DNA of 30,086 nt, from IMG/VR virus record IMGVR_UViG_3300030116_006028, positions 1 through 30,086 of that record; one strand, given 5' to 3'. A program made the position numbers and the translations under genes. This document shows, piece after piece, positions 3 through 26,259 of the stretch. A model generated the notes under the pieces. That model searched no databases. It saw nothing but the letters and a program-made list of their open reading frames with translations, and was not told the origin of the DNA. The first letter of the stretch is position 1, and each line of letters opens with the position of its first letter. This stretch comes from a virus.

Positions 3-56
3 TGGGAAGAAGTAGGCGGAGCAAGTATAGGTTTAGTAATAGCACTAGGAGAATAA
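3..56 (+). CDS. C-terminal end of a small phage structural protein (5' partial)
   Basis: Reading back from the TAA just before the next ATG gives an open frame ending in ASIGLVIALGE. It matches the end of the 63-aa protein at 1309-1500 (DIGLVIALG), and both are followed at once by a ~110-aa protein ending in VLEI. So the window opens inside the first of two duplicated gene pairs. The start lies upstream of the window. The function is unknown; a minor structural role is inferred from the tail-gene context. Confidence 0.6.
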   Translation, partial: WEEVGGASIGLVIALGE

Positions 57-57
57 T

Positions 58-387
58 ATGGCTGAAACATTTAAAAGTGTAAATGCAGATTTAGGTACTT
101 CTGCAGACACTTCTATCTATCAGTGTCCTAGTAGCACAACAGCAATAGTGATATTATGTCAAGTTGCAAATGTTGATGGTTCTAACAATGCTGATGTATA
201 TGTAGACTATTATGATAGTTCTACAACAACTGCAAAAGCATTGGCTCATACTGTCGCAGTTCCAGCTGATACTTCATTAAATCCTATTGGTGGAAAGCTT
301 GTATTAGAAGCTGGAGACCAATTAAGAGCTTGGGCTAGTGCTGCTTCTGACCTTGAAATAGTTGTTTCTGTTTTAGAGATTTCATAG
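58..387 (+). CDS. Small phage structural protein, paralogue of 1504-1836
   Basis: 109 aa, starting MAETFKSVNADLG and ending SVLEIS. It aligns along its whole length with the 110-aa protein at 1504-1836: both have an xTFKxxxxDL-like start, a central NVDG, a VPADxS motif, KLVLExGD and a final VLEI. It is rich in Thr, Ser, Ala and beta-branched residues, has no Cys pairs or membrane segment, and looks like a beta-rich virion part such as a head-tail or fibre accessory. It starts 1 base after the preceding stop and follows a GLVIALG peptide, as its paralogue does. The exact role is unknown. Confidence 0.7.
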   Translation: MAETFKSVNADLGTSADTSIYQCPSSTTAIVILCQVANVDGSNNADVYVDYYDSSTTTAKALAHTVAVPADTSLNPIGGKLVLEAGDQLRAWASAASDLEIVVSVLEIS

Positions 388-394
388 GATAAAT

Positions 395-1111
395 ATGTCA
401 TTGTACAATTACATTGGTAATTTTCCAGCTCAATCATCTTCGACTGGTAACAGAGGAATATTAAGTATGCCAGAGCATTATGACTTAAAATCTAAAAGTA
501 ATTTATCTGATCCTTTACCACCTACACCAGCAGGTATGACTCTTAAATTTTATTTAGATGCCAAAAATACTCAATCTTATTCTGGAAGTGGTACTACTTG
601 GAGCGACCTAACACAAAACGCTAATGATTTTAGTATTACAAGTCCAAGCTATAACAGTAATGGTTATTTCAATCTTAGTGACTCTGCAAGCACAAATATA
701 ACTAGAAGTGGTGTTTTGGGAGAAAGTGATATGACAGTATTTTTTCTAATGTCCACAACAGATGGTCAGTCTTTAATGATTCACGATGGTGGTGGTGCTT
801 ATCTTGGAGCCTACAGGTCTGGTGCCAAATACTATCACGCACAAGTTTCTGGTAATAAAGGTTTATATGTTAATACAAATGCTAGAAATAATTTATATGA
901 TTATATAAGAACAGGTTCTTTTTTACTTATAACAATTTCAGATTGTGATTTTCATTCAACTAACTTTAATGATTATCAATTTAACGCCTATGGTAGTTAC
1001 CAATTTGGTAATGGTTCATTGAGAGCATTAGGTGCATACAACGGTAATTTTAGTTCTTCGGATGTAACAACATTATACAACTGGTTTAATGAGAAAGGTT
1101 ATTTCTCGTGA
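395..1111 (+). CDS. LamG/concanavalin-like tail adhesin
   Basis: 238 aa. The first ~30 residues (MSLYNYIGNFPAQS) resemble the N-termini at 1847 and 3510 (YVG or YIG, then PxQ), which may be a shared attachment segment. From about residue 48 the sequence reads TLKFYLDAKNTQSYSGSG, TTWSDLTQNAND, as in LamG/concanavalin A-like jelly-roll domains of phage tail fibres, where this region starts the carbohydrate-binding sandwich. The C-terminus (residues ~210-238, YNWFNEKGYFS) also fits that family. The likely role is host-surface sugar recognition at the tail tip. The next small gene overlaps its stop as GTGA. The fold is assigned from motif memory, not from a search. Confidence 0.65.
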   Translation: MSLYNYIGNFPAQSSSTGNRGILSMPEHYDLKSKSNLSDPLPPTPAGMTLKFYLDAKNTQSYSGSGTTWSDLTQNANDFSITSPSYNSNGYFNLSDSASTNITRSGVLGESDMTVFFLMSTTDGQSLMIHDGGGAYLGAYRSGAKYYHAQVSGNKGLYVNTNARNNLYDYIRTGSFLLITISDCDFHSTNFNDYQFNAYGSYQFGNGSLRALGAYNGNFSSSDVTTLYNWFNEKGYFS

Positions 1112-1242
1112 GTTGGGTAGTCACTAGAGATGATGATGATAGTTTTTCTGAAGTATTTGATACTGAGGAAGAAGCCGTAGAATATACCCATAGTGTTGAT
1201 AGTGAAACAATGATTTCTTGGTTTATGGAAGAAGAGAGTTGA
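1108..1242 (+). CDS. Small acidic hypothetical protein (44 aa)
   Basis: A GTG start overlaps the stop of the LamG-like gene in a GTGA junction, implying translational coupling. The product starts MSWVVTRDDDDSF, contains EVFDTEEEAVEYT and ends MEEES. It is strongly acidic with no Cys. The DTEEEAVEY pattern resembles short phage proteins of unknown function. No role is assigned. Confidence 0.55.
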   Translation: MSWVVTRDDDDSFSEVFDTEEEAVEYTHSVDSETMISWFMEEES

Positions 1243-1244
1243 TA

Positions 1245-1316
1245 ATGACAATGAGATTTATAAAGACTGCTAAACTTAAAAAGAACTATTCAGTTCAAGG
1301 AGAAATAAATGGGTAA
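1245..1316 (+). CDS. Possible 23-aa basic peptide
   Basis: ATG two bases after the preceding stop; the reading frame is MTMRFIKTAKLKKNYSVQG and ends by overlapping the start of the gene at 1309. It is basic (several Lys). It has no clear Shine-Dalgarno and could be a coupling leader that brings ribosomes to the AAGGAG ahead of 1309, or may not be translated at all. Confidence 0.25.
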   Translation: MTMRFIKTAKLKKNYSVQGEING

Positions 1317-1500
1317 AATTGTAACAGACGAACTAGAAGAGCGTGTTGGCTCTGCTGGTGTAACAGTTAACAGTACAATGAAGATAGACACGATTGCAGA
1401 AAAAACTTCTGGTAGTGGTGTAACTATTGATGGATTGAACATAAAAGACGGTGCCGTTGCAGGTGCTGTCGATATTGGACTAGTAATAGCGTTAGGATAA
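1309..1500 (+). CDS. Small phage structural protein with GVTIDG/KDG repeat
   Basis: 63 aa with a good AAGGAG 8 bases ahead of the ATG. It contains VGSAGVTVN and, later, TSGSGVTIDGLNIKDGAV, a short beta-repeat type seen in many phage tail-fibre and head-decoration proteins, and ends DIGLVIALG. The same ending occurs in the partial gene at position 3-56, so this is the second copy of a duplicated pair. It probably forms or caps a beta-structure in the virion; the role is inferred from context. Confidence 0.65.
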   Translation: MGKIVTDELEERVGSAGVTVNSTMKIDTIAEKTSGSGVTIDGLNIKDGAVAGAVDIGLVIALG

Positions 1501-1503
1501 TAA

Positions 1504-1836
1504 ATGGCAAATACATTTAAAAATGCACGATTAGCTGTTACTTCTTCTAATCAAACTATGTATACCAACTCAAGTGGTGGTACTGCATTGATCCTTACAT
1601 TGAGGATCACAAATGTTGATGGGGCTACAGATGATACAGTTACAGCACAAATTTATGATAATAGTGCTTCAGCTGCAACAAAAGTTGCTTCCACGATCAC
1701 AGTCCCTGCAGACTCATCAATTGAACTTGCAGGTACATCAAAGTTAGTATTAGAAAATGGTGACTATCTACAGATCCAGGGTGGTAATAGCTCTGGAGAT
1801 CTAGAAGCTTTTGCGAGTGTATTAGAAATAACATAA
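1504..1836 (+). CDS. Small phage structural protein, paralogue of 58-387
   Basis: 110 aa, start MANTFKNARLAV, end ASVLEIT. It aligns with 58-387 through NVDG, VPADSS, SKLVLENGD and the final VLEI. It begins 3 bases after the stop of the GLVIALG protein, repeating the order seen at the window start. It is beta-rich and Thr/Ser/Ala-rich, with no membrane or metal motifs. It is probably a minor virion protein of the tail or fibre base. It has clearly diverged from its partner, so the duplication is not recent. Confidence 0.7.
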   Translation: MANTFKNARLAVTSSNQTMYTNSSGGTALILTLRITNVDGATDDTVTAQIYDNSASAATKVASTITVPADSSIELAGTSKLVLENGDYLQIQGGNSSGDLEAFASVLEIT

Positions 1837-1846
1837 GGAGTTACCA

Positions 1847-2476
1847 ATGGCATTTTCGTATGTTGGGGTTTCTCCAAATCAAACTGTTAAAAACACAGGT
1901 GTACTATCACTTGATGATTTAAATAATTTAGAATCTACTGGTGAATTAGGTGGTAGTTTAGAACTTATACAAGAAATTACTGCTGACGGTAGTGCATTAA
2001 ATTTAGATTTTACAAATATCTTAGAGAATAAATACGACAAACATTTATTGATTCTCAAAGGAATATTTTTTGCAGGGACAAATAAACTCCCAAGAATGCG
2101 ATTAAGTAATGATGGTGGTTCAAGTTTTGAAACTACAACTAGTTACATGGAAGCTTATCAATCAATGATTGTTTCTACTTTTAATGAACTTAGAAATCAT
2201 CAAAGTTTTTTTAACTTAATGAGCAATGTAGGTAATGAAGCAACAGAAGTAGGTAACAGTTATATTTATTTAAGCGGTTTAGGAAATTCAAGTACATTCA
2301 GTTATTTAAATTGGCATTCATCAGGAATGACTAGTGGTGGTGGTTCTTCAACAACAACTTTTGGTGGTGGTGTTTATAGAGTTGCAGAAGTTATAAATGG
2401 AATAAGAATATTTGAAGCAACAGCAACTCATAATATTTCTGGGACTGCAACACTTTTTGGAGTAAAAAAATTATGA
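1847..2476 (+). CDS. Tail-fibre-like protein with N-terminal anchor-like segment
   Basis: 209 aa behind an AAGGAG. Residues 1-30 (MAFSYVGVSPNQTVKNTGVL) form the YVG-PxQ segment shared with 395 and 3510. From about residue 38 comes the domain shared with 2473, 2994, 4456, 5064 and 5588: an opening beta strand, YDKHLLILKG, RLSNDGG, a mid Gly-rich stretch (GGGVYR), NGIRIFEA and a last strand GTATLFGVKKL. This looks like a receptor-binding or fibre-tip beta domain. The stop overlaps the next start by 4 bases. Binding target unknown. Confidence 0.65.
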   Translation: MAFSYVGVSPNQTVKNTGVLSLDDLNNLESTGELGGSLELIQEITADGSALNLDFTNILENKYDKHLLILKGIFFAGTNKLPRMRLSNDGGSSFETTTSYMEAYQSMIVSTFNELRNHQSFFNLMSNVGNEATEVGNSYIYLSGLGNSSTFSYLNWHSSGMTSGGGSSTTTFGGGVYRVAEVINGIRIFEATATHNISGTATLFGVKKL

Positions 2477-2997
2477 GTAGTTTGAGACTTTTAGAGGATA
2501 CAACAATTGGTACTAGTGTATCAAAAATCAGAATATCAGATGTATTTAGTTCTGATTTTGATATATATCAAATTACTTTTGATGGCACAGATACAGCAAA
2601 TGATACAGATATAGATCTAATGTTAGTAAATGCAAATGGTTCTTTAGTTACCTCAACTAATTATGAATATGCTAACTTGCGTTTAAATAGTAATTCTAGT
2701 TTTACAGAGATGGAAGCTGATGGACAATCAAAATGGTTAGATTTTATGGGTAAGGGCGGTAACGATTCTGGTGAAAGTTGTCAAGTAGTTGCCTATATTT
2801 TTAATCCTTATAGATCTGATTCATATACTTATGCTTTGACACAATCGTCAAATGGAATAGTAGCAATATCTCAATTCATAAAAGGTATCGCAATTCTAAA
2901 AGAACAATCAACAATTACAGGTTTTGAAATAAGTATTAATAGTGGTGCAACAACAGGTGGATCTGTAAGAGTTTATGGATTGAGGTCAAGTTCATGA
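2473..2997 (+). CDS. Tail-fibre-like domain protein without anchor segment
   Basis: 174 aa, opening directly with the shared domain (SLRLLEDTTIGTSVSKIRI). Family landmarks are FDIYQITFDG, NYEYANLRL, the IFNPYRSDSYTY segment, KGIAILKE and the final VRVYGLRSS. It lacks the YVG-PxQ N-terminus of the gene before it and is coupled to it by an ATGA overlap. This suggests that long and short versions are made together and may assemble into one fibre. No enzymatic motif is visible. Confidence 0.6.
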   Translation: MSSLRLLEDTTIGTSVSKIRISDVFSSDFDIYQITFDGTDTANDTDIDLMLVNANGSLVTSTNYEYANLRLNSNSSFTEMEADGQSKWLDFMGKGGNDSGESCQVVAYIFNPYRSDSYTYALTQSSNGIVAISQFIKGIAILKEQSTITGFEISINSGATTGGSVRVYGLRSSS

Positions 2998-3509
2998 GTT
3001 TTACTCTTGTTCAATCAACAGCTGTAAGTTCTGCTGTATCGACTGTTACTCTTTCAGGAATAAACACAGATGATGTATATATGTGTGCCTGGAATAATGT
3101 CTTCTGTGATGCAAATGATGATATAAGTATAAGAGTTACAACAAGTGGTACTGGTGATAGTGATTCTGAATATGATTATGCAAGTAAAGATTTAAAAGAG
3201 GGTGCTACTTATGGCAACACTAATAACAGAACAAATAAAACACATTTTGATTTATCAGCTGGTGTAGGAACTAGTGGAACGAATAGTGACAATGGTATTA
3301 TGTATTTATTTAATTTTAATGACTCAAGTGAATACTCTTTTGTAACTTATGAAAATGTAACTTTTAGAGATGACAGTGCCGATACACTATTTGGATTTCA
3401 AGGTGGTGGTGTGCATACTGTAGCAGAAGCTAATGACGGTATACATTTCTTCCTAGATGGGGGAAATAATTTTGTAAGTGGAACATTTTCTCTGTACAAG
3501 GTGATATAA
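2994..3509 (+). CDS. Tail-fibre-like domain protein without anchor segment
   Basis: 171 aa, third in the coupled series (ATGA overlap with the previous gene). It starts SFTLVQSTAVSSAVSTVTL and has the landmarks EYDYASKDL, FNFNDSSEYSF, GGGVHTVAEANDGIHFF and the last strand GTFSLYKVI. It is closest in layout to 5588-6106, which shares the AVSSAV/SSAVAS opening and GGGVxT. A virion adhesin role is inferred from the paralogues. Confidence 0.6.
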   Translation: MSFTLVQSTAVSSAVSTVTLSGINTDDVYMCAWNNVFCDANDDISIRVTTSGTGDSDSEYDYASKDLKEGATYGNTNNRTNKTHFDLSAGVGTSGTNSDNGIMYLFNFNDSSEYSFVTYENVTFRDDSADTLFGFQGGGVHTVAEANDGIHFFLDGGNNFVSGTFSLYKVI

Positions 3510-4463
3510 ATGAGTAAAAAACAATTTGGATATATAGGTGCAGCACCAACACAAAGTGTAGGTAATTTATCACCACGATACTTATATCAAGCTTCTAAAG
3601 GAAGTGGTGGTATTGTTACTTCAGATAAGGTATTTATAACACATACTTTTGTAGCAAATGGAAACTTTGTCGCTAGTGCTAATGTCTCACCTTATGAAGC
3701 ACAGATTTATGTTATTGGTGGTGGTGGTGGTGGAGGAGGATCTGAGAATGCAAATAATTCAAGTTCACATGGTGGTGGTGGCGGAGGATTAGCTTATTCT
3801 TTAAATTACACTATAAAACCAGGAACAACATATGCAGTTGTAGTTGGAGCTGGTGGTTCTGGTAGTAATGGTTATAGTACATCTGGTGGTGCAGGTGGTG
3901 TATCTTCTTTTAATTCTGAACTCACTGCTAATGGTGGAGGAGCAGGATCACACAATTCCTCTGGTTCTGGTGGTACAGCATCTGGAGGTGATACAAATGT
4001 TACAGGTGGTAATGGTGGCGCAGGTCAATCAACTGGCACTGGTAGTAATGGAGGTTCATCAACAGCTGCAGGTGGTGGTGCAGGTGGATCTGGAAATGAC
4101 AAGGGTGGTTTAGGTGGTTTTGGTTCAGCTGCACACTTTACAGGTGGTGGTGGAGGTGGAGGATCTGATTATGGTAGAACAGGTTTAGGTTTTGGTGGAG
4201 CTGGATATTTTAATGGTGGTGCTGGTGGTGCTTACAGTGATACTAGTGATGCTGCTGATGGACCATTTTATGGTCAAGCAGGTCGTGGTGATTATGGCGG
4301 TGCTGCAGGAACGGTACCATCAGGTGCAGCAAGACCTAATAATGGTGGTGGCGGTGGTACTTTTGGTGGCGGTGGCGGTGGTGCTGGTGATACATCTCTT
4401 AATCCATCAAATGGTGGAGCTGGTGCTCAAGGTGCTGTGATTGTGAGGTATAGAATTGGCTAA
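3510..4463 (+). CDS. Glycine-rich tail-tip adhesin
   Basis: 317 aa. Residues 1-35 carry the YIG-APTQS anchor-like segment and a short linker. From about residue 65 the pattern is IYVIGGGGGGGGS, then YAVVVGAGGSG, then many GGAGG, GGGGG and GSGG runs, ending GAVIVRYRIG. This matches glycine-rich phage adhesins; in T-even gp38-type adhesins such runs form packed polyglycine-II helices with variable loops that bind receptors. The DNA holds long GGT/GGA codon runs, which favour slippage and recombination. It starts immediately after the previous stop. Open reading frames in other phases here are artefacts of the repeats. Confidence 0.75.
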   Translation: MSKKQFGYIGAAPTQSVGNLSPRYLYQASKGSGGIVTSDKVFITHTFVANGNFVASANVSPYEAQIYVIGGGGGGGGSENANNSSSHGGGGGGLAYSLNYTIKPGTTYAVVVGAGGSGSNGYSTSGGAGGVSSFNSELTANGGGAGSHNSSGSGGTASGGDTNVTGGNGGAGQSTGTGSNGGSSTAAGGGAGGSGNDKGGLGGFGSAAHFTGGGGGGGSDYGRTGLGFGGAGYFNGGAGGAYSDTSDAADGPFYGQAGRGDYGGAAGTVPSGAARPNNGGGGGTFGGGGGGAGDTSLNPSNGGAGAQGAVIVRYRIG

Positions 4464-5064
4464 TTCAGGAATATTTAATACAAACGAAATATTAGAGCTA
4501 CAACAAAATAGACAATTTCCTATTAAAGGATCTTATGATTTAATACAGACACAAACAATAACTAATTCTCAAAGCACACTGGTTGCAAGATTACAGTTTA
4601 CAGAATTGCAAGCTGAAGAATACAATACACATTTGATACATTTTACAAATGTAAAAGTAAACGATTTACTTACTTCTGGTTATCAACTTGGATTTCGTGC
4701 TTTAAGTAATAATTCAAATGCTGGTGGCTGGAGATGGGGACAGAGAAGATATCAAAACGGTGGTTGGTCAGACCAAAAAAGCAATAGTTATAGTCGTTGT
4801 GGTTTGATTTGGTTTTCAATAGATGGTGATACAAATAATTCAGGTAACGGCTACATATATATTCACAATGCAGCTGACGAGTCTGTATATACTTCAGTAT
4901 CTATGCACACTATAGGATGGCAACAACAAAATACAGTAGGTTATGGTTATGGAAGTGGCACAATGCCTACTGCAAATAAAGTCGATGCTTTTGAGATAGC
5001 TAATTATTCAAACACAATTGGCTTTTCAGGAACATTTAGTTTATATGGATTGAGGGATTACTAA
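4456..5064 (+). CDS. Tail-fibre-like protein
   Basis: 202 aa from a TTG start lying 8 bases inside the glycine-rich gene, with GAGG upstream. The N-terminus (ANSGIFNTNEILELQQNRQF) is a different short leader from the YVG-PxQ type. The shared domain follows from ~residue 27: SYDLIQTQTI, EYNTHLIHFTNV, YIYIHNAADESVYTS, and the final GTFSLYGLRDY. The next gene starts on the last base of its stop codon. It is likely a fibre or receptor-binding component; the family name is unknown to me. Confidence 0.6.
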   Translation: MANSGIFNTNEILELQQNRQFPIKGSYDLIQTQTITNSQSTLVARLQFTELQAEEYNTHLIHFTNVKVNDLLTSGYQLGFRALSNNSNAGGWRWGQRRYQNGGWSDQKSNSYSRCGLIWFSIDGDTNNSGNGYIYIHNAADESVYTSVSMHTIGWQQQNTVGYGYGSGTMPTANKVDAFEIANYSNTIGFSGTFSLYGLRDY

Positions 5065-5588
5065 TGGCTACAAGTATACAATTTATTACTAGTTTAGATA
5101 TTAATACTAGTCAATCTACTACAGACTTAGATAACATATTTTCTAATGCTTACGATGTTTATAAAATTGTTTTGAGAAATTTTAAAACAGTTGGGACAAC
5201 TGATATGAATCTAAATGCAAGATTAATAGATAATAACGGAAGTGTTATAACGCAGAGTGAATATGATTATGCAGTAGACCAAATTAAATCTAATACTAAT
5301 TTTTCTGAAAATAGAAATCAAAATTATTCTACAATAGACCGAATATTTTTTTCTGATAAAATTCCTGAAAGTCAAGGTACTGTTATGTATGTATACAATC
5401 CATATAACAGTTCAGCATATACATTTCTTACTTGGCAAGACACACATCATAGAGGTGGTGCTGGTGGAGGTTTTAAAGGTATTGCAGTTCATAAAAATAC
5501 TGAAGCCATAAGAGGTATAAGGTTTTATGATGTGTATACAAATAGACCTTACAACTCAGGCAAAATATTAGTTTATGGAGTTAGATAA
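5064..5588 (+). CDS. Tail-fibre-like domain protein without anchor segment
   Basis: 174 aa, joined to its neighbours by TAATG junctions at both ends. Landmarks: AYDVYKIVLRNFKT, RLIDNNGS, EYDYAVDQI, YVYNPYNSSAYTF, a GGAGGGFKG turn, IRGIRFYDV and the last strand KILVYGVR. It is most like 2473-2997 (NPY motif, KGIAxxK). No catalytic motif. Inferred to be a virion adhesin subunit. Confidence 0.6.
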   Translation: MATSIQFITSLDINTSQSTTDLDNIFSNAYDVYKIVLRNFKTVGTTDMNLNARLIDNNGSVITQSEYDYAVDQIKSNTNFSENRNQNYSTIDRIFFSDKIPESQGTVMYVYNPYNSSAYTFLTWQDTHHRGGAGGGFKGIAVHKNTEAIRGIRFYDVYTNRPYNSGKILVYGVR

Positions 5589-6106
5589 TGGCAGGTAGCT
5601 TAATAAAAATAGATGAAGAAATTGTTTCATCAGCAGTAGCAAGTGTAGATTTAACAGGTATTGATAGTACTTATGATGTTTTTAAAGTAATCGTTATAAA
5701 TCTACAATGTGATACAGATGTAAACGATGTGAAATGCAGAGTATTAGAAAGTGGAACAGCTAACACAACATCTAATTATGATAGAGGGAGTGATTTATTA
5801 AGAGCTTCTACTTCATTTGCTACTCAAAGTGCTACAAATGAAACAAGTTGGGATATGGGAACTAACATTGGCACAGGAACAGGCGAAAGCTCAAATTTTG
5901 TACAATACATTTATAATGCTAATAATTCATCAGGATACACTTTTATGACAAAAGAAGTAGCAGAACTAAACTCAACTCCTGAATTAGTAGGACAACAAGG
6001 TGGTGGTGTTTACACTCAAAATACTGCTGTAAATGGTCTGACTTATTTTATGAATAGTGGAAATATAGATGCAGGTACATTTAGATTATACGGTTTAAAG
6101 AAGTAA
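5588..6106 (+). CDS. Tail-fibre-like domain protein without anchor segment
   Basis: 172 aa and the last member of the series. It opens SLIKIDEEIVSSAVASVDL and contains TYDVFKVIVINLQC, NYDRGSDLL, YIYNANNSSGYTF, GGGVYTQNTAVNGLTYF and the final GTFRLYGLKK. It parallels 2994-3509 in motif order, so the locus may have grown by duplicating a block of genes rather than single genes. It is followed by 34 bases and then the XkdW-like gene. Confidence 0.6.
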   Translation: MAGSLIKIDEEIVSSAVASVDLTGIDSTYDVFKVIVINLQCDTDVNDVKCRVLESGTANTTSNYDRGSDLLRASTSFATQSATNETSWDMGTNIGTGTGESSNFVQYIYNANNSSGYTFMTKEVAELNSTPELVGQQGGGVYTQNTAVNGLTYFMNSGNIDAGTFRLYGLKK

Positions 6107-6140: not shown

Positions 6141-6455
6141 ATGGCTACATTAGAAGAACTAACGGTAGAAGCAACTTCTGAAATAGAAGCAGCAAAACCG
6201 TTATACAAACAAGTAAATAATGAGCGTATGGAATTCGACGATGCTGATTATGATCAAGCTATTACAGACTTAGCTAATTCTAAGTTTGATGAGCAAGAAT
6301 ATGGTTATATATCAGCTCGACAAGCAGAATACCCTAGCATTGGTGATCAGTTAGATATGTTATATCATGACATGACAGCTGGTAAAGGCGACAATACTGG
6401 TGATTGGTACGCTGCTATCGAAAAAATCAAAGAAGATAATCCAAAACCAGAATAA
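6141..6455 (+). CDS. XkdW-like / tail-fibre-associated protein
   Basis: 104 aa with TAGGAGAG upstream. Residues ~58-80 read ISARQAEYPSIGDQLDMLYH, the hallmark of a small phage family (XkdW-like and related proteins) that ends with KP-type residues, here EDNPKPE. These genes usually lie straight after tail-fibre genes and are thought to assist fibre assembly or attachment; that role is family-level inference. It is the last gene before a strong terminator, so it closes the adhesin operon. Confidence 0.7.
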   Translation: MATLEELTVEATSEIEAAKPLYKQVNNERMEFDDADYDQAITDLANSKFDEQEYGYISARQAEYPSIGDQLDMLYHDMTAGKGDNTGDWYAAIEKIKEDNPKPE

Positions 6456-9784: not shown

Positions 9785-10033
9785 ATGAAAGTTTGGATCG
9801 ATCAAGATCTTTGCACTGGTGACGGACTTTGTGAGGAAATATGCCCAGATGTTTTTATTGGATTAGATGATGGACTGTATTATGTAAAAGATGGGGATAA
9901 AATTTATTCATCATCTCATGATAACCCTGAAGGAGCTGAGGGTTTAGCCACTGTTCCTAAAGGTAAAGAAGAGGAGGTTATTGAGTCAGCTGAAGAGTGT
10001 CCTGGCGAATGTATCATGATTGAGCCAGATTGA
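9785..10033 (+). CDS. Ferredoxin with Asp in the cluster motif
   Basis: 82 aa. The motif is C10-TG-D13-GL-C16-EEI-C20-P, then C72-PGE-C76. In single-cluster ferredoxins the pattern is CxxCxxCxxxCP...CP; here Asp13 replaces the second Cys, as in Pyrococcus furiosus ferredoxin, which holds a [4Fe-4S] or [3Fe-4S] cluster. The start (KVWIDQDLCTGDGLCEEICP) and the end (AEECPGECI) strongly resemble small ferredoxins I associate with Acidimicrobiia-like actinobacteria. It may supply electrons to a host or phage redox enzyme; none is obvious in the window apart from the PP-loop protein. It is probably an auxiliary metabolic gene from the host lineage. Confidence 0.85.
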   Translation: MKVWIDQDLCTGDGLCEEICPDVFIGLDDGLYYVKDGDKIYSSSHDNPEGAEGLATVPKGKEEEVIESAEECPGECIMIEPD

Positions 10034-13000
10034 TGCTAAGTAAATTCAATACCCTAGCACGACTAATAATAGTTTTACTTCTTGTCGTTCCAATATATCC
10101 TATTGCACCAGCATTTGCGAATGAAGTAACTGAAACAGAAACTTTTGATGGTGCAAACGGTACACAGGTTACTGATTTAGGAATACCAAGTGGTACTGCA
10201 GCAATAGATAGTGATAATGTTGCAATAAGAAATGACCAAAACTGTTGTGGTGTTGGTGGTCAATACTTTTTTAGTATGTTAGATAATCAAACATCACAAA
10301 ACGCTAATACAACAGGTTTTACTTTTACACTTCCAACTGATCACGATATAAAAGAAGTTGGATTTAGAACAGCTGGTGTAAATTCAAACTACACTATTCA
10401 ATATAATTATTCTGACGCAAGTTCAGAACAAGTTAGTAAAAATGGTCAAAGTGGTGCAACTTATGAAGATATTACTAAAGCAGTTACTAATAAATATATT
10501 ACCTCTTTTACGGTTACAGTATCTGACTGGTCTGGTATAGATACCATATATTGGAAGTATGACGATACTACTACCACTACTACTACGAGTACTACTACTA
10601 GTACTACGACTACTAGTACTACCACCACCACGACTAGTACGACTACTACTGTTCCACCAACTGTAGGAGTACCAACAAATTTTACTGCTACTAAAAATAG
10701 TAACGGATCAATTACTCTTGATTGGGACGCACCAACTACTGGTAATCAAACACCAGATAGATATACAGTTCAGTATGGTGATAATGGGGTTTTAGATCAG
10801 AATCCTACTACTACAGATACAGAAATGACTTTGACTAGAAGTCAGTTAGAAACTGCACTTGGACTAAGCAATAGTGAAGGTATAGCATATATGTTTCATG
10901 TCAAGGCAGAAAATGTTGCTCAGTCAATAGAGTCTTCTTTTACAGATGTGGAAACAATAACTATAAGTCAAGCACCAGATAATTCTGCTAGTACTTATGC
11001 AGTTACAGAAACTACTGATGGTATAAATATTGAGTGGATAACACCGTCAAGCAACTGGGTCGATATTGCAGGATATAAAGTTATATATTCAGAAACAGAC
11101 AGTGATGATTACAACTCTAGTGTTTGGCAATATCTCTATGTAAGCACCGATACAAGTGTCACAGAATATACAATACCTTGGACAGATAATTTTGAAAACT
11201 GGGACTATGGAACAATAAATGGTAATAGATATTTTAGAATATCTACTTGTTCTGCTAGTTGGTGGTGTAATGATGTCAAAGGAACTTTTCAATTTAAGAA
11301 TACACTAGGACCACCTATGAACCCAACAGTAGAAAATGTTTACGATACTGGTGTATTAGTAGATTGGGATATACCTAATACTGGTAATAGAACTGCTGAA
11401 AGTTATGACTTATATTATAGAATAAATGGCACTTCAGATAATACTGTTGTTACAGGGATCACTGATACTGAATACACAATTCCATATAGTGCTATCACAG
11501 ATAATACTTATGTTTTTAGTATTCAAGCAAAAAATACTTCTTACAATGTAGCTTCTGGATATTCTACTGAACCTATACTTGGAGTTGTCAATCAAAAAGT
11601 TATTGATGACGCATATGTTCCACCAGCTCCTGATCCAGAACCATATGTAGCTCCACCACCTCCCCCACCACCAGTTGTAGTAATAGTTGGTGGAGAAGAA
11701 ACTGAATATACCCAAAGTGAAGTCGATGATGGTACAGTAGAGAGAGACCAACAAAGAGCAAAAAACTTAGAATTATACGGAGTTGAATTAACTGACGAAC
11801 AAATTGCTAGGGGTGACGCAGGTGATATCGAACTTATTGATGAAGATGAAGAAACCGAAGCAGGAGAGTTTCCTGAAGATGATGATCTGGTATTACTACC
11901 AGAAACTACAGATTACGATGAAGAGCCTGTGTACGAAGTATATGACGAAGATGAAGGTTGGGTTGAAGTCTCAGAAGAAGAGTTTGAAGAAATACTTGAG
12001 TTTGAAGCTGAGAAAGATGCTAAAGAATTAGAAATACTAGAAACATATGATCTTGAAGAATTAGAGGATTTAAATTTATATATTCCTGAAGATGAATATG
12101 AAGATCTTACTGAAGAAGAAATAAAACAAATAGAAAAAGAATTTGAAGAGTTTATCGAAACAGTATTAGTTGTTGAAGAGTACTTAGAATCTTTAGAGGA
12201 TGATTTTGAAATTGAACCAGTATTAATATTACCTGTTACTGAAATAATTATTGATGAAGATGATTTACCAAAAGATGGTAGGTTACCACCAGTACCTGAA
12301 GATGAAGAAATCCTGATCTTAGAAGTTATTGAGGAAGATGGTGAGTCAGTAATAATTATTCCAGATGATGTAGATGTATTCGAAGTAGAACTATTACCTG
12401 AAGAAGAGATAGAAGAACTTACTGAAGAAGAATACCAAGAATACAAAGAACAGAAAAAAGAAGTTATCGAAACATATGTTGAGGAGCTGGAAGAAGAAAT
12501 AATTGAAGAGGTTTTACCAGAAACTGTTTCTGTTGAGGAATATAAAGAAATCAAAGAAAAAGATGTAGAAGAACTCACAGAAGAGGAAATAGAATTGGTA
12601 GTAGAAGTTACCGAACAAGTTATCGAGGAAGTTGTAGATATAGAAGAACTTGAGGAAGTAATAGTTTCGGAAGAGATAGAAATATTAGAAGATGAAGTAC
12701 TTGAGGATTTATCAGAAGAAGAACTTGAAGTATATGAAGAAGAGTTAGAGGAAGTCATAGAAAATTATGTAGAGGAACTAGAAGTAGAGGAATTAGTAGT
12801 AGTCGTTGAGCAAATAGCTGAAGTTGGTGTAGAAAACTTGGCAACAGCCGACACGCAAACAGTAAAAGTCGTACAGGCTGTAGTGGCTGAAGTCGTAGAT
12901 ACAGAAAAAGTTGAAGAGTTATCAGATCAAGAACAAGAAGCAGTTGCTGATGTTTTAGGTTTTGAGGAAGTAGAAGATGTCGAGATAATCGCAGAAGTAG

Positions 13001-13296
13001 CAGCAAAAGATGAAACGGTTGCTGAAGCTGTGTCAGAATATGTAGAAAGAGCTGTTGAAAATGCTGAGGTAGAAAATTATACACTTGCCGATGTAGTCAC
13101 AGAGGTACAAGTAGAGGCCTTTTTGGAAAACCCAATAGGCGAGCTTGTAAGTGTTAATATAGTAGAGATGGATCTGGGGTCGATAGGTAGCGACATGACA
13201 AGTGACCAGAAAGAGAAAGCACAAGAAGTCGTGGTTCCAGTAATCATCGCTTCCCAAATAGTTGCTCAAGCTGGTGCGTTAATTAGGAGATTTTAA
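10033..13296 (+). CDS. Very large secreted FN3 / Thr-rich / Glu-rich surface protein
   Basis: 1087 aa from the ATG in a TGATG overlap with the ferredoxin stop. Residues 1-30 are a signal peptide (LARLIIVLLLVVPIYPIAPA, cut near AFA-NE). Then: a Cys-containing beta domain (~31-170), a ~30-residue Thr/Ser tract (~176-206), three fibronectin III-like modules (~207-305, ~313-420, ~425-520), a Pro-rich hinge (~528-548), ~380 very acidic residues with repeated LTEEE/LSEEE units, an Ala/Val-rich part and a hydrophobic C-terminus ending LIRRF. It looks exported, possibly to the host envelope, as an adhesin, spike or exclusion factor. The next gene overlaps by one base. The function is not known. Confidence 0.7.
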   Translation: MLSKFNTLARLIIVLLLVVPIYPIAPAFANEVTETETFDGANGTQVTDLGIPSGTAAIDSDNVAIRNDQNCCGVGGQYFFSMLDNQTSQNANTTGFTFTLPTDHDIKEVGFRTAGVNSNYTIQYNYSDASSEQVSKNGQSGATYEDITKAVTNKYITSFTVTVSDWSGIDTIYWKYDDTTTTTTTSTTTSTTTTSTTTTTTSTTTTVPPTVGVPTNFTATKNSNGSITLDWDAPTTGNQTPDRYTVQYGDNGVLDQNPTTTDTEMTLTRSQLETALGLSNSEGIAYMFHVKAENVAQSIESSFTDVETITISQAPDNSASTYAVTETTDGINIEWITPSSNWVDIAGYKVIYSETDSDDYNSSVWQYLYVSTDTSVTEYTIPWTDNFENWDYGTINGNRYFRISTCSASWWCNDVKGTFQFKNTLGPPMNPTVENVYDTGVLVDWDIPNTGNRTAESYDLYYRINGTSDNTVVTGITDTEYTIPYSAITDNTYVFSIQAKNTSYNVASGYSTEPILGVVNQKVIDDAYVPPAPDPEPYVAPPPPPPPVVVIVGGEETEYTQSEVDDGTVERDQQRAKNLELYGVELTDEQIARGDAGDIELIDEDEETEAGEFPEDDDLVLLPETTDYDEEPVYEVYDEDEGWVEVSEEEFEEILEFEAEKDAKELEILETYDLEELEDLNLYIPEDEYEDLTEEEIKQIEKEFEEFIETVLVVEEYLESLEDDFEIEPVLILPVTEIIIDEDDLPKDGRLPPVPEDEEILILEVIEEDGESVIIIPDDVDVFEVELLPEEEIEELTEEEYQEYKEQKKEVIETYVEELEEEIIEEVLPETVSVEEYKEIKEKDVEELTEEEIELVVEVTEQVIEEVVDIEELEEVIVSEEIEILEDEVLEDLSEEELEVYEEELEEVIENYVEELEVEELVVVVEQIAEVGVENLATADTQTVKVVQAVVAEVVDTEKVEELSDQEQEAVADVLGFEEVEDVEIIAEVAAKDETVAEAVSEYVERAVENAEVENYTLADVVTEVQVEAFLENPIGELVSVNIVEMDLGSIGSDMTSDQKEKAQEVVVPVIIASQIVAQAGALIRRF
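10562..10651 (+). repeat. ACN codon repeat coding a Thr/Ser tract
   Basis: About 30 codons, almost all ACT/ACC/ACG with some AGT, inside the large secreted gene. The codon mix is varied enough to limit slippage, but the tract is likely to vary in length between relatives. Its product is a stiff, probably glycosylatable linker between the N-terminal domain and the FN3 modules. Confidence 0.8.
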
Positions 13297-25371: not shown

Positions 25372-26259
25372 TCAGACACCACACATACCCTCGCACTCGT
25401 CATCAAAGAGAGTCCAGGCAACATCTTCTTTAGGTTTGCTTAAATTTGCAACCTTAAGTGGTATTCGATCTTTATGTAGATAAGGGACACTACCCTCGTT
25501 ATATTGTTTAAACTTTTGCATACCAATACTATTATTTTCAGGATCACGCAACCATTCATCAAAATCTATAGCTTGTTGAAACTCTGCTTCATTTTGATTT
25601 TTTATATGTAGCCACTCTTCATTGCTGTGAAATGGACAAATAATACAAGCAGATCTTGGTGGAGGTGGATAACCTTTTTCTTGCATCCAGTCTTTACAGT
25701 CTTGTCGTGTGACTTTGTTTTCTATCAATGGATAACAATTGACTTGCCACTTCATTGGTGGCTTTTTGGCTCTTTGTACTTCATCTAAAGATATACCCAT
25801 AACCATTTCGATATGTTTAGATCGTAAGTAAACAACATCAAAATATTCTCTTAGCCAGTCTTGTAAAGGTCTTATTTTGTATTCTGAAGTACAAGTTCGT
25901 CGTCCTAAAGCTTTATTGCCGTCAGATTTAGTTATATGTAGTGGAAATAGCGAGTGCCTACCACTATCTGCCTTAAAATCATCTACAATGTTACCTTTGT
26001 TATACTCATTTCTTACAATTACGAGCTTAATCTTGCCTTCCATTTGTTTTTTAAGATACTCTAGCCAGTCATATACAGCTTGAGGTTCGTTGCCAGTATC
26101 AGAAAATATTGCAACATCAGGCGGTTCTATTTCACCATGAAGCATTTTAAAAAGCAGCGTAGATGATTGTACGCCAGCTCCTAAAGATAATACCCTTAGA
26201 TCTCTTTCTCTTTCAAAAGTGTCAGGATCTCCCAACTTCATTTCTTGAACATAATTCAT
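25372..26259 (-). CDS. PP-loop ATP pyrophosphatase / PAPS reductase-like protein
   Basis: 295 aa. LSLGAGVQSSTL (24-35) is the PP-loop; IFSDTGNEP (51-59), RRTCTSEYKIRPL (120-132) and SACIICPFHSNEEW (203-216) match the PAPS-reductase/DndC-like family in phages. Cys123, Cys175, Cys205 and Cys208 could hold an Fe-S cluster, as in related tRNA- and DNA-thiolation enzymes (inference). The C-terminus is CEGMCGV. Likely adenylates and modifies a nucleic acid or small substrate. The minus-strand -10 TATACT (26267-26272) lies 7 bases before the ATG, so the message may be leaderless. Last gene of the minus cluster. Confidence 0.75.
   Translation of the reverse strand: MNYVQEMKLGDPDTFERERDLRVLSLGAGVQSSTLLFKMLHGEIEPPDVAIFSDTGNEPQAVYDWLEYLKKQMEGKIKLVIVRNEYNKGNIVDDFKADSGRHSLFPLHITKSDGNKALGRRTCTSEYKIRPLQDWLREYFDVVYLRSKHIEMVMGISLDEVQRAKKPPMKWQVNCYPLIENKVTRQDCKDWMQEKGYPPPPRSACIICPFHSNEEWLHIKNQNEAEFQQAIDFDEWLRDPENNSIGMQKFKQYNEGSVPYLHKDRIPLKVANLSKPKEDVAWTLFDDECEGMCGV

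Follow-up and report, generated by a model that had tools for sequence, protein, structure and literature searches.

Introduction

The receptor-binding heads of phages are normally homotrimers. In complement C1q, three tandem paralogues (the A, B and C chains) build one heterotrimeric beta head. Among viruses, a report on the tail proteins of Dishui Lake virophage 2 (DSLV2) describes a 1:1:1 heterotrimer, which is supported by co-expression, native polyacrylamide gel electrophoresis and electron microscopy (PMC12724248). It is also already known, from Mizuno 2014 (PMC3909814), that the fibre and C1q-like genes of marine phages are variable: metaviromic islands of these phages, including HTVC010P-like ones, carry hypervariable putative receptor-binding genes of the C1q-like and tail-fibre types. 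In the present study we analysed the IMG/VR virus record IMGVR_UViG_3300030116_006028, referred to below as the window, which is a complete record of 30,086 bases (34.9% GC) and a fragment of a larger virus. Its left 6.5 kb carries fibre-type genes, named here by the position of their first base (Table 1), and we describe an array of related genes within it, which is arranged in triads.

Results

Two A-B-C triads in the array

A sequence-only reading had described positions 395 to 6,106 as an array of fibre-like proteins, six of which share one domain with a GTFxLYGL-like last strand, and had proposed that they form either a heteromeric fibre or a pool of interchangeable receptor-binding parts. 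The shared domain (approximately 172 amino acids (aa), designated D) was borne out by BLASTP comparisons within the window, which revealed homology of 2994 to 5588 (39%, 4e-28), 2473 to 5064 (30%, 1e-19), 1847 to 5064 (1e-8) and 1847 to 4456 (4e-5). The clearest D partner is thus found three D genes away (2994-5588 and 2473-5064), while 1847 and 4456 share an N-terminal extension. The six D genes constitute two triads, 1847/2473/2994 and 4456/5064/5588, separated by 3510; the class labels A, B and C used hereafter denote gene position modulo 3. This order had been overlooked, as had the fact that 395 and 3510 lie outside the D family (no D domain was detected in either by BLASTP).

The phrog_14820 model (206 positions) is matched by 1847 over positions 15-206 and by 5588 over positions 24-206; the other four D proteins of the window do not match it, and their membership was established by BLAST and hidden Markov model searches. 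No Pfam family was matched at E<=1 by the B proteins, the C proteins or 4456, and 1847 gave only sub-threshold matches to unrelated families. The compact gene joins noted earlier were confirmed when the coordinates were re-read: 2473 and 2994 overlap the preceding gene by ATGA (-4), 3510 abuts (0), 4456 overlaps by -8, and 5064 and 5588 are joined by TAATG (-1).

Conservation of order, clades and array size

Two sets of relatives were collected. Viral contigs scanned with 5588 (a C protein) yielded 101 relatives; 80 loci from among them were retained as set 1. Since this set had been found via a C protein, an independent scan was made with A, which gave 54 loci without overlap with the first (set 2); class profiles trained on set 1 were then applied to it. 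A single-sequence search with 2473 (B) and a search with the B profile yielded no loci. All counts given below are of sequences and not of independent events, as gene order is inherited.

In the relatives, the arrays show a long-short-short pattern, once or twice, with stereotyped joins (76 of 97 B-C joins are one-base overlaps). FastTree, applied to 298 domains from the 80 contigs, recovered three clades, and the clade of every classed gene agreed with its position modulo 3 (84 A, 97 B and 109 C; 290/290). In an IQ-TREE analysis of 45 rows, A, B and C were each set apart by a single branch (support for A 99/90, B 100/100, C 99/93), and none of 500 label shuffles reached the observed clustering. 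Because subclades are also formed by the B and the C genes of first triads, it is probable that a whole triad was duplicated in one piece. All 224 adjacent pairs of set 2 followed the cycle (87 AB, 90 BC and 47 CA), and the six remaining kinds of pair were absent; the apparent gap in the sole odd locus of this set (L244) contains a divergent full-length C. Complete arrays comprised three genes in 23 loci, six in 16 and five in one (L030).

The A-B-C arrangement is therefore not a loose array and lies far beyond chance. Tandem paralogues are common in phages, and one might suppose that the genes were simply duplicated in tandem, with an array size that drifts and no functional coupling. We consider this explanation the least probable of all, given that sizes of three and six occur exclusively, bar one locus, and that AA, BB, CC, AC, BA and CB neighbours are missing. 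As regards the exceptional five-gene array (L030:1-1415), it begins at B beside an unrelated antisense radical-SAM-like gene; this is possibly a chimeric contig, or a true loss of A.

The N-terminal segment of A

An N-terminal extension is restricted to A proteins; it comprises 32-43 residues in most six-gene arrays and about 16 in most three-gene arrays. The long form has the consensus SNEYGYIGESPEQSFGKNKGIFTPSDILDLTKDGKW. In agreement with the sequence-only reading, a YxGxxPxQ N-terminus is carried by 1847, 395 and 3510, while 2473, 2994, 5064 and 5588 consist of the D domain alone. The segment in 3510 is, on closer inspection, only the first half (YIGAAPTQSVGN), and 4456 retains only the second half (NSGIFNTNEILELQQNRQF), a split that had escaped notice. 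It appears from these sequences that a glycine-rich gene was inserted into the N-terminal region of A2, which now uses a TTG start. The long form also stands at the start of glycine-rich proteins in three related loci (L046, E 1.6e-17; L017; L075). Because the same segment is reused in a modular fashion on different proteins, we infer that it serves for docking, and it is called the docking segment below.

A second feature of A is an Asp-box-like hairpin, SNDGGSSF, at residues 87-94 of 1847. This motif was found in 27 of 84 A proteins (0.4 expected from shuffled sequences), and in none of 97 B and 109 C proteins. It recalls a statement in PMC7771536, according to which a phage sequence from the single-cell genome AG-919-G14 has a variable region said to concern sialic acid removal, and the array could on these grounds be viewed as an enzymatic module acting on the cell surface. 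We set this explanation aside as highly improbable: the motif occurs once per protein and in a third of the A proteins only, no sialidase family was matched, and one hairpin is not a propeller. The presence of the hairpin may account for the “sialic acid” label that a region of this kind has received in print.

Exchange of alleles between phages

Near-identical phages were found to differ by whole A and/or B genes, and the replacement was always of the same class. Starting just 5' of C, loci L048 and L050 share 98.8% identity over 8.5 kb, and their A docking segments are about 98% identical, yet despite this backbone identity is 40% between their A proteins and 37% between their B proteins. 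In L066 and L060 the corresponding values are 50% for A, 38% for B and 99% for C. For L017 and L020, the 9 kb that begin with B show 99.8% identity, with A at 37%, and L020 has one triad more. Sliding-identity plots placed the breakpoints at gene borders and just past the docking segment; a short peak of conservation marks the junction of A and B.

Whole-gene swaps between phages thus uphold one part of the proposed pool of interchangeable proteins; the other part, free interchange among all six genes, was set aside, as class never crosses position (each A, B or C gene is replaced only by a gene of its own class). Nothing suggests that a single phage switches among its six genes. The restriction of exchange to the same class may merely reflect sequence similarity at the gene ends. 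This is also how position-locking would be explained if A, B and C were three independent receptor-binding homotrimers with separate receptors, joined only as a co-transcribed operon. Such an organization would suit the conserved gene ends and the almost independent change of A, B and C alleles. A pool of this kind should, however, gain and lose single genes, whereas all 54 loci of set 2 obey the A-B-C cycle, and B and C have no docking segment of their own. We rank this explanation second among the alternatives and judge it unlikely.

Predicted fold

An AlphaFold2 model of 5588, built with 110 sequences, is an 11-strand all-beta domain (predicted local distance difference test score (pLDDT) 93.9, predicted template modelling score (pTM) 0.89), in which the GTFxLYGL-like strand is the last one. 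The A, B and C proteins are predicted to have the same fold and are of nearly equal length, so the folds are related. Among the VIA-align neighbours (Z 6.5-8.1) are the C-terminal beta-sandwiches of GH32 proteins, which reach Z 8.1, and galectins, at Z about 7, a likeness of the model that may reflect only a common arrangement of beta strands. C1q and TNF folds are absent among the VIA-align neighbours listed, and there was neither a Pfam C1q match nor a sequence relative in the PDB. Among predicted viral structures there were 115 matches at E<=0.001, some of them named side-tail-fibre (Stf) repeat, collagen-repeat or tail-fibre proteins. Stems of these three kinds are known from trimers.

Triads in pelagiphages

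Three consecutive D proteins of phrog_14820 are also encoded beside the tail-fibre assembly genes of pelagiphages HTVC010P (gp30-32), HTVC019P and HTVC034P, where they are annotated as hypothetical only. Complete pelagiphage arrays numbered 49; exactly three members were present in 23 of them and four in 21 (usually a longer relative followed by three); the longer D proteins begin with YIGxxP. Overlaps in the three-member arrays are mostly of -14 and -1 (17/23). Position is clade-specific in these 23 arrays (2 changes for three labels, which is the minimum), and in a larger set including partial arrays the association is strong and imperfect (14 changes, compared with 100 in shuffles).

The pelagiphage trio is separated from A/B/C with 100/100 support, and approximately unbiased (AU) tests, in which long branches were present, rejected the groupings of A, B and C with the first, second and third pelagiphage position (p 6.9e-7, 3.7e-5 and 2.3e-8, respectively). 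A set of three paralogues thus seems to have evolved on two occasions.

The existence of two independent triads is relevant to a further alternative, in which A, B and C are three different homotrimers placed in series along one fibre, with A proximal and docked, B in the middle and C at the tip. The long fibre of T4 is likewise made of several proteins in series. A fixed order, a docking segment on A alone, swaps at gene borders and the greatest conservation of C (median identities between triads of 40% for A, 37% for B and 50% for C) would all be expected of such a fibre. Serial segments usually differ in both length and fold, whereas A, B and C differ little in either, and duplication by threes together with the second independent triad better suits a ring of three. 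We regard this arrangement as unlikely, although it is the foremost of the alternatives.

Discussion

The explanation that we favour, with a probability of roughly 60%, is that the array encodes a receptor-binding head of three different subunits, most likely a 1:1:1 A:B:C heterotrimer, in which A docks B and C. Of the two earlier proposals, the heteromeric fibre thus gains from the obligate A-B-C order, the duplication by threes, the docking segment on A alone and the independent pelagiphage triad; the physical complex itself, its stoichiometry, its location in the virion and its binding to a receptor are what we infer from these observations.

On this view the phage would be a marine siphophage, probably of the Candidatus Actinomarina type, and the array would specify the tip with which it recognizes its host. 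From each triad would come one appendage head, a fixed A:B:C set of three subunits that are all-beta and homologous to one another. The YIGxxPxQ segment of A would anchor this set on the virion, with B and C entering via A and the XkdW-like protein encoded 3' of the array helping in assembly. The variable loops of A, B and C might jointly form the receptor-binding surface. As separate gene cassettes with conserved ends, single A, B or C alleles could recombine at gene borders to produce new combinations, with each position retaining its own interfaces. The phage of the window would possess two triad heads and two alternative docked proteins (395 and 3510).

Several points weigh against this model. 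Gene order can be inherited without heteromers. Neither virion proteomics nor a receptor for these proteins was found in the literature searched. A search of solved structures by fold gave no match at E<=0.001, and a search of the PDB by sequence gave no meaningful relative. The divergence of A, B and C covaries weakly within triads (r 0.03-0.43 for tree distances and 0.31-0.49 for identities), which makes the mirror-tree test for their co-evolution uninformative; weak covariation is expected if alleles reassort, yet there is also no positive sign of tuned interfaces. Lastly, of the structure prediction of oligomers suggested earlier, only the common fold was obtained: in a fused chain of the C-A-B genes of L082, which form a single reading frame when stops are ignored (aligned as CA and AB tiles), the domains fold alike (mean pLDDT 82), but a pTM of 0.41 means that no packing was predicted. 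In view of the thin alignment and short artificial linkers, we take this value as uninformative rather than negative.

A more general and tentative proposal, to which we give slightly less than even odds, is that these arrays represent a combinatorial receptor-binding system: obligate heterotrimeric adhesin heads, with each subunit a gene cassette that has its own pool of alleles and is swapped singly between phages, the combination setting the host range. Such a system would have evolved at least twice, in Actinomarina-type siphophages and in SAR11 podophages. If this is true, a phage could alter part of its binding surface without rebuilding the whole head, a three-allele code could be read from metagenomes and compared with host surface loci, and proteins that carry only a hypothetical annotation in the abundant pelagiphage HTVC010P could be given a function.

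Genes flanking the array and the probable host

The coordinates of the array and of adjacent genes are given in Table 1.

Table 1. Genes of the array and its immediate surroundings in the window
Gene	Position	Strand	Features
S1	58..387	+	~109-aa structural-type protein 5' of head set; paralogue of 1504
L	395..1111	+	YIGxxPxQ-like N-terminal segment and a different head; LamG/concanavalin-like by eye only
63-aa ORF (open reading frame)	1309..1500	+	ends GLVIALG; directly 5' of S2
S2	1504..1836	+	second of the S proteins, immediately 5' of triad 1; phrog_1276 7.5e-08
A1	1847..2476	+	putative docking N-terminus (~residues 1-34) and D domain; clade A; phrog_14820 4.8e-07; anchor profile match
B1	2473..2997	+	D domain alone; clade B
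C1	2994..3509	+	D domain alone; clade C; 63% to C1 of Actinomarina single-cell genome phage
G	3510..4463	+	glycine-rich fibre-like protein between triads; first half of putative docking N-terminus
A2	4456..5064	+	TTG start, second half of putative docking N-terminus, D domain; clade A, long branch
B2	5064..5588	+	D domain alone; clade B
C2	5588..6106	+	D domain alone; clade C; 11-strand all-beta model; phrog_14820 9.1e-08
XkdW-like	6141..6455	+	putative fibre assembly protein directly 3' of array; phrog_9114 1.3e-15

The S proteins 58 and 1504 are a paralogous pair (43%, 2e-21, BLASTP) that the sequence-only reading had not recorded. Protein 58 matches phrog_1276 (2.3e-10) and phrog_26609 (6.6e-10), both of which also match HTVC010P gp24, annotated as “virion structural protein”; in relatives, S proteins are located 9-11 nucleotides ahead of the triads. 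A larger repeat is seen near the left end of the window (3-387 and 1309-1836), where the series of an ORF ending in GLVIALG, an S protein and docked heads occurs twice. No significant Pfam match was obtained for 395, while 3510 matches PF21722 (Gly_rich_2, 4.8e-13) and the anchor profile (E 0.007). In 78 of 79 loci, the gene next to the array on its 3' side is a homologue of 6141. Protein 6141 has no direct Pfam XkdW match; its tie to XkdW runs through phrog_9114, a family that includes HTVC010P gp29, and gp29 has a match to PF09636 (XkdW) as well, at 1.1e-16.

The triad arrays lie after tape-measure and tail genes. The sole match in a bacterial genome (L088) is a contig of the Candidatus Actinomarina single-cell genome AG-919-G14, in which a long tape-measure-like ORF is followed by S, ABC, A'B'C' and a homologue of 6141. 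The exonuclease of the window is closest to those from phages of Streptomyces and other Actinobacteria. By these sequence comparisons an Actinomarina-type host is likely, and we stop short of calling it proven because the similarity of the window to L088 is limited, covering no more than S, the triads, 6141 and part of 10030.

The last of these genes (10030-13296, +) encodes a protein of 1088 aa with a hydrophobic N-terminus, fn3 (PF00041, 1.6e-11), a Thr-Ser-rich stretch and a very acidic tail, which has matches in 27 related loci. The window also encodes an 82-aa ferredoxin (9785-10033, +; PF13459 Fer4_15, 1.5e-15), a 394-aa protein with a match to AIPR (abortive infection phage resistance; 14881-16065, +; PF10592, E 2.2e-07), possibly a weapon against competing phages, and a 3'-phosphoadenosine 5'-phosphosulphate (PAPS)-reductase-type protein (25372-26259, -; phrog_424, 2.2e-44) with a relative in L057.

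Comparison with known systems

The open-access literature searched yielded no description of fixed trios with position-locked exchange. The hypervariable islands of Mizuno 2014 are described there gene by gene, and neither triads nor position-locked exchange were found in the available text (PMC3909814). The likeness to complement C1q is an organizational analogy only: no match to it was found for the proteins of the window, either in sequence or among the fold neighbours listed, and homology is not claimed. The pelagiphage trios of HTVC010P (gp30-gp32), HTVC019P and HTVC034P belong to the same domain family and are likewise found three in a row, but they form a clade of their own, for which positional orthology with A, B and C was rejected.

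The nearest counterpart in organization is DSLV2. Its tail proteins contain a PF07484 collar domain and are T4 gp37-like, whereas the proteins of the window have no significant Pfam match and a different predicted fold. Doubled triads and allele swaps, both of which occur in relatives of the window, were not found in the accessible part of PMC12724248. What the two systems have in common is three consecutive homologous genes in a conserved order, with clades that follow position.

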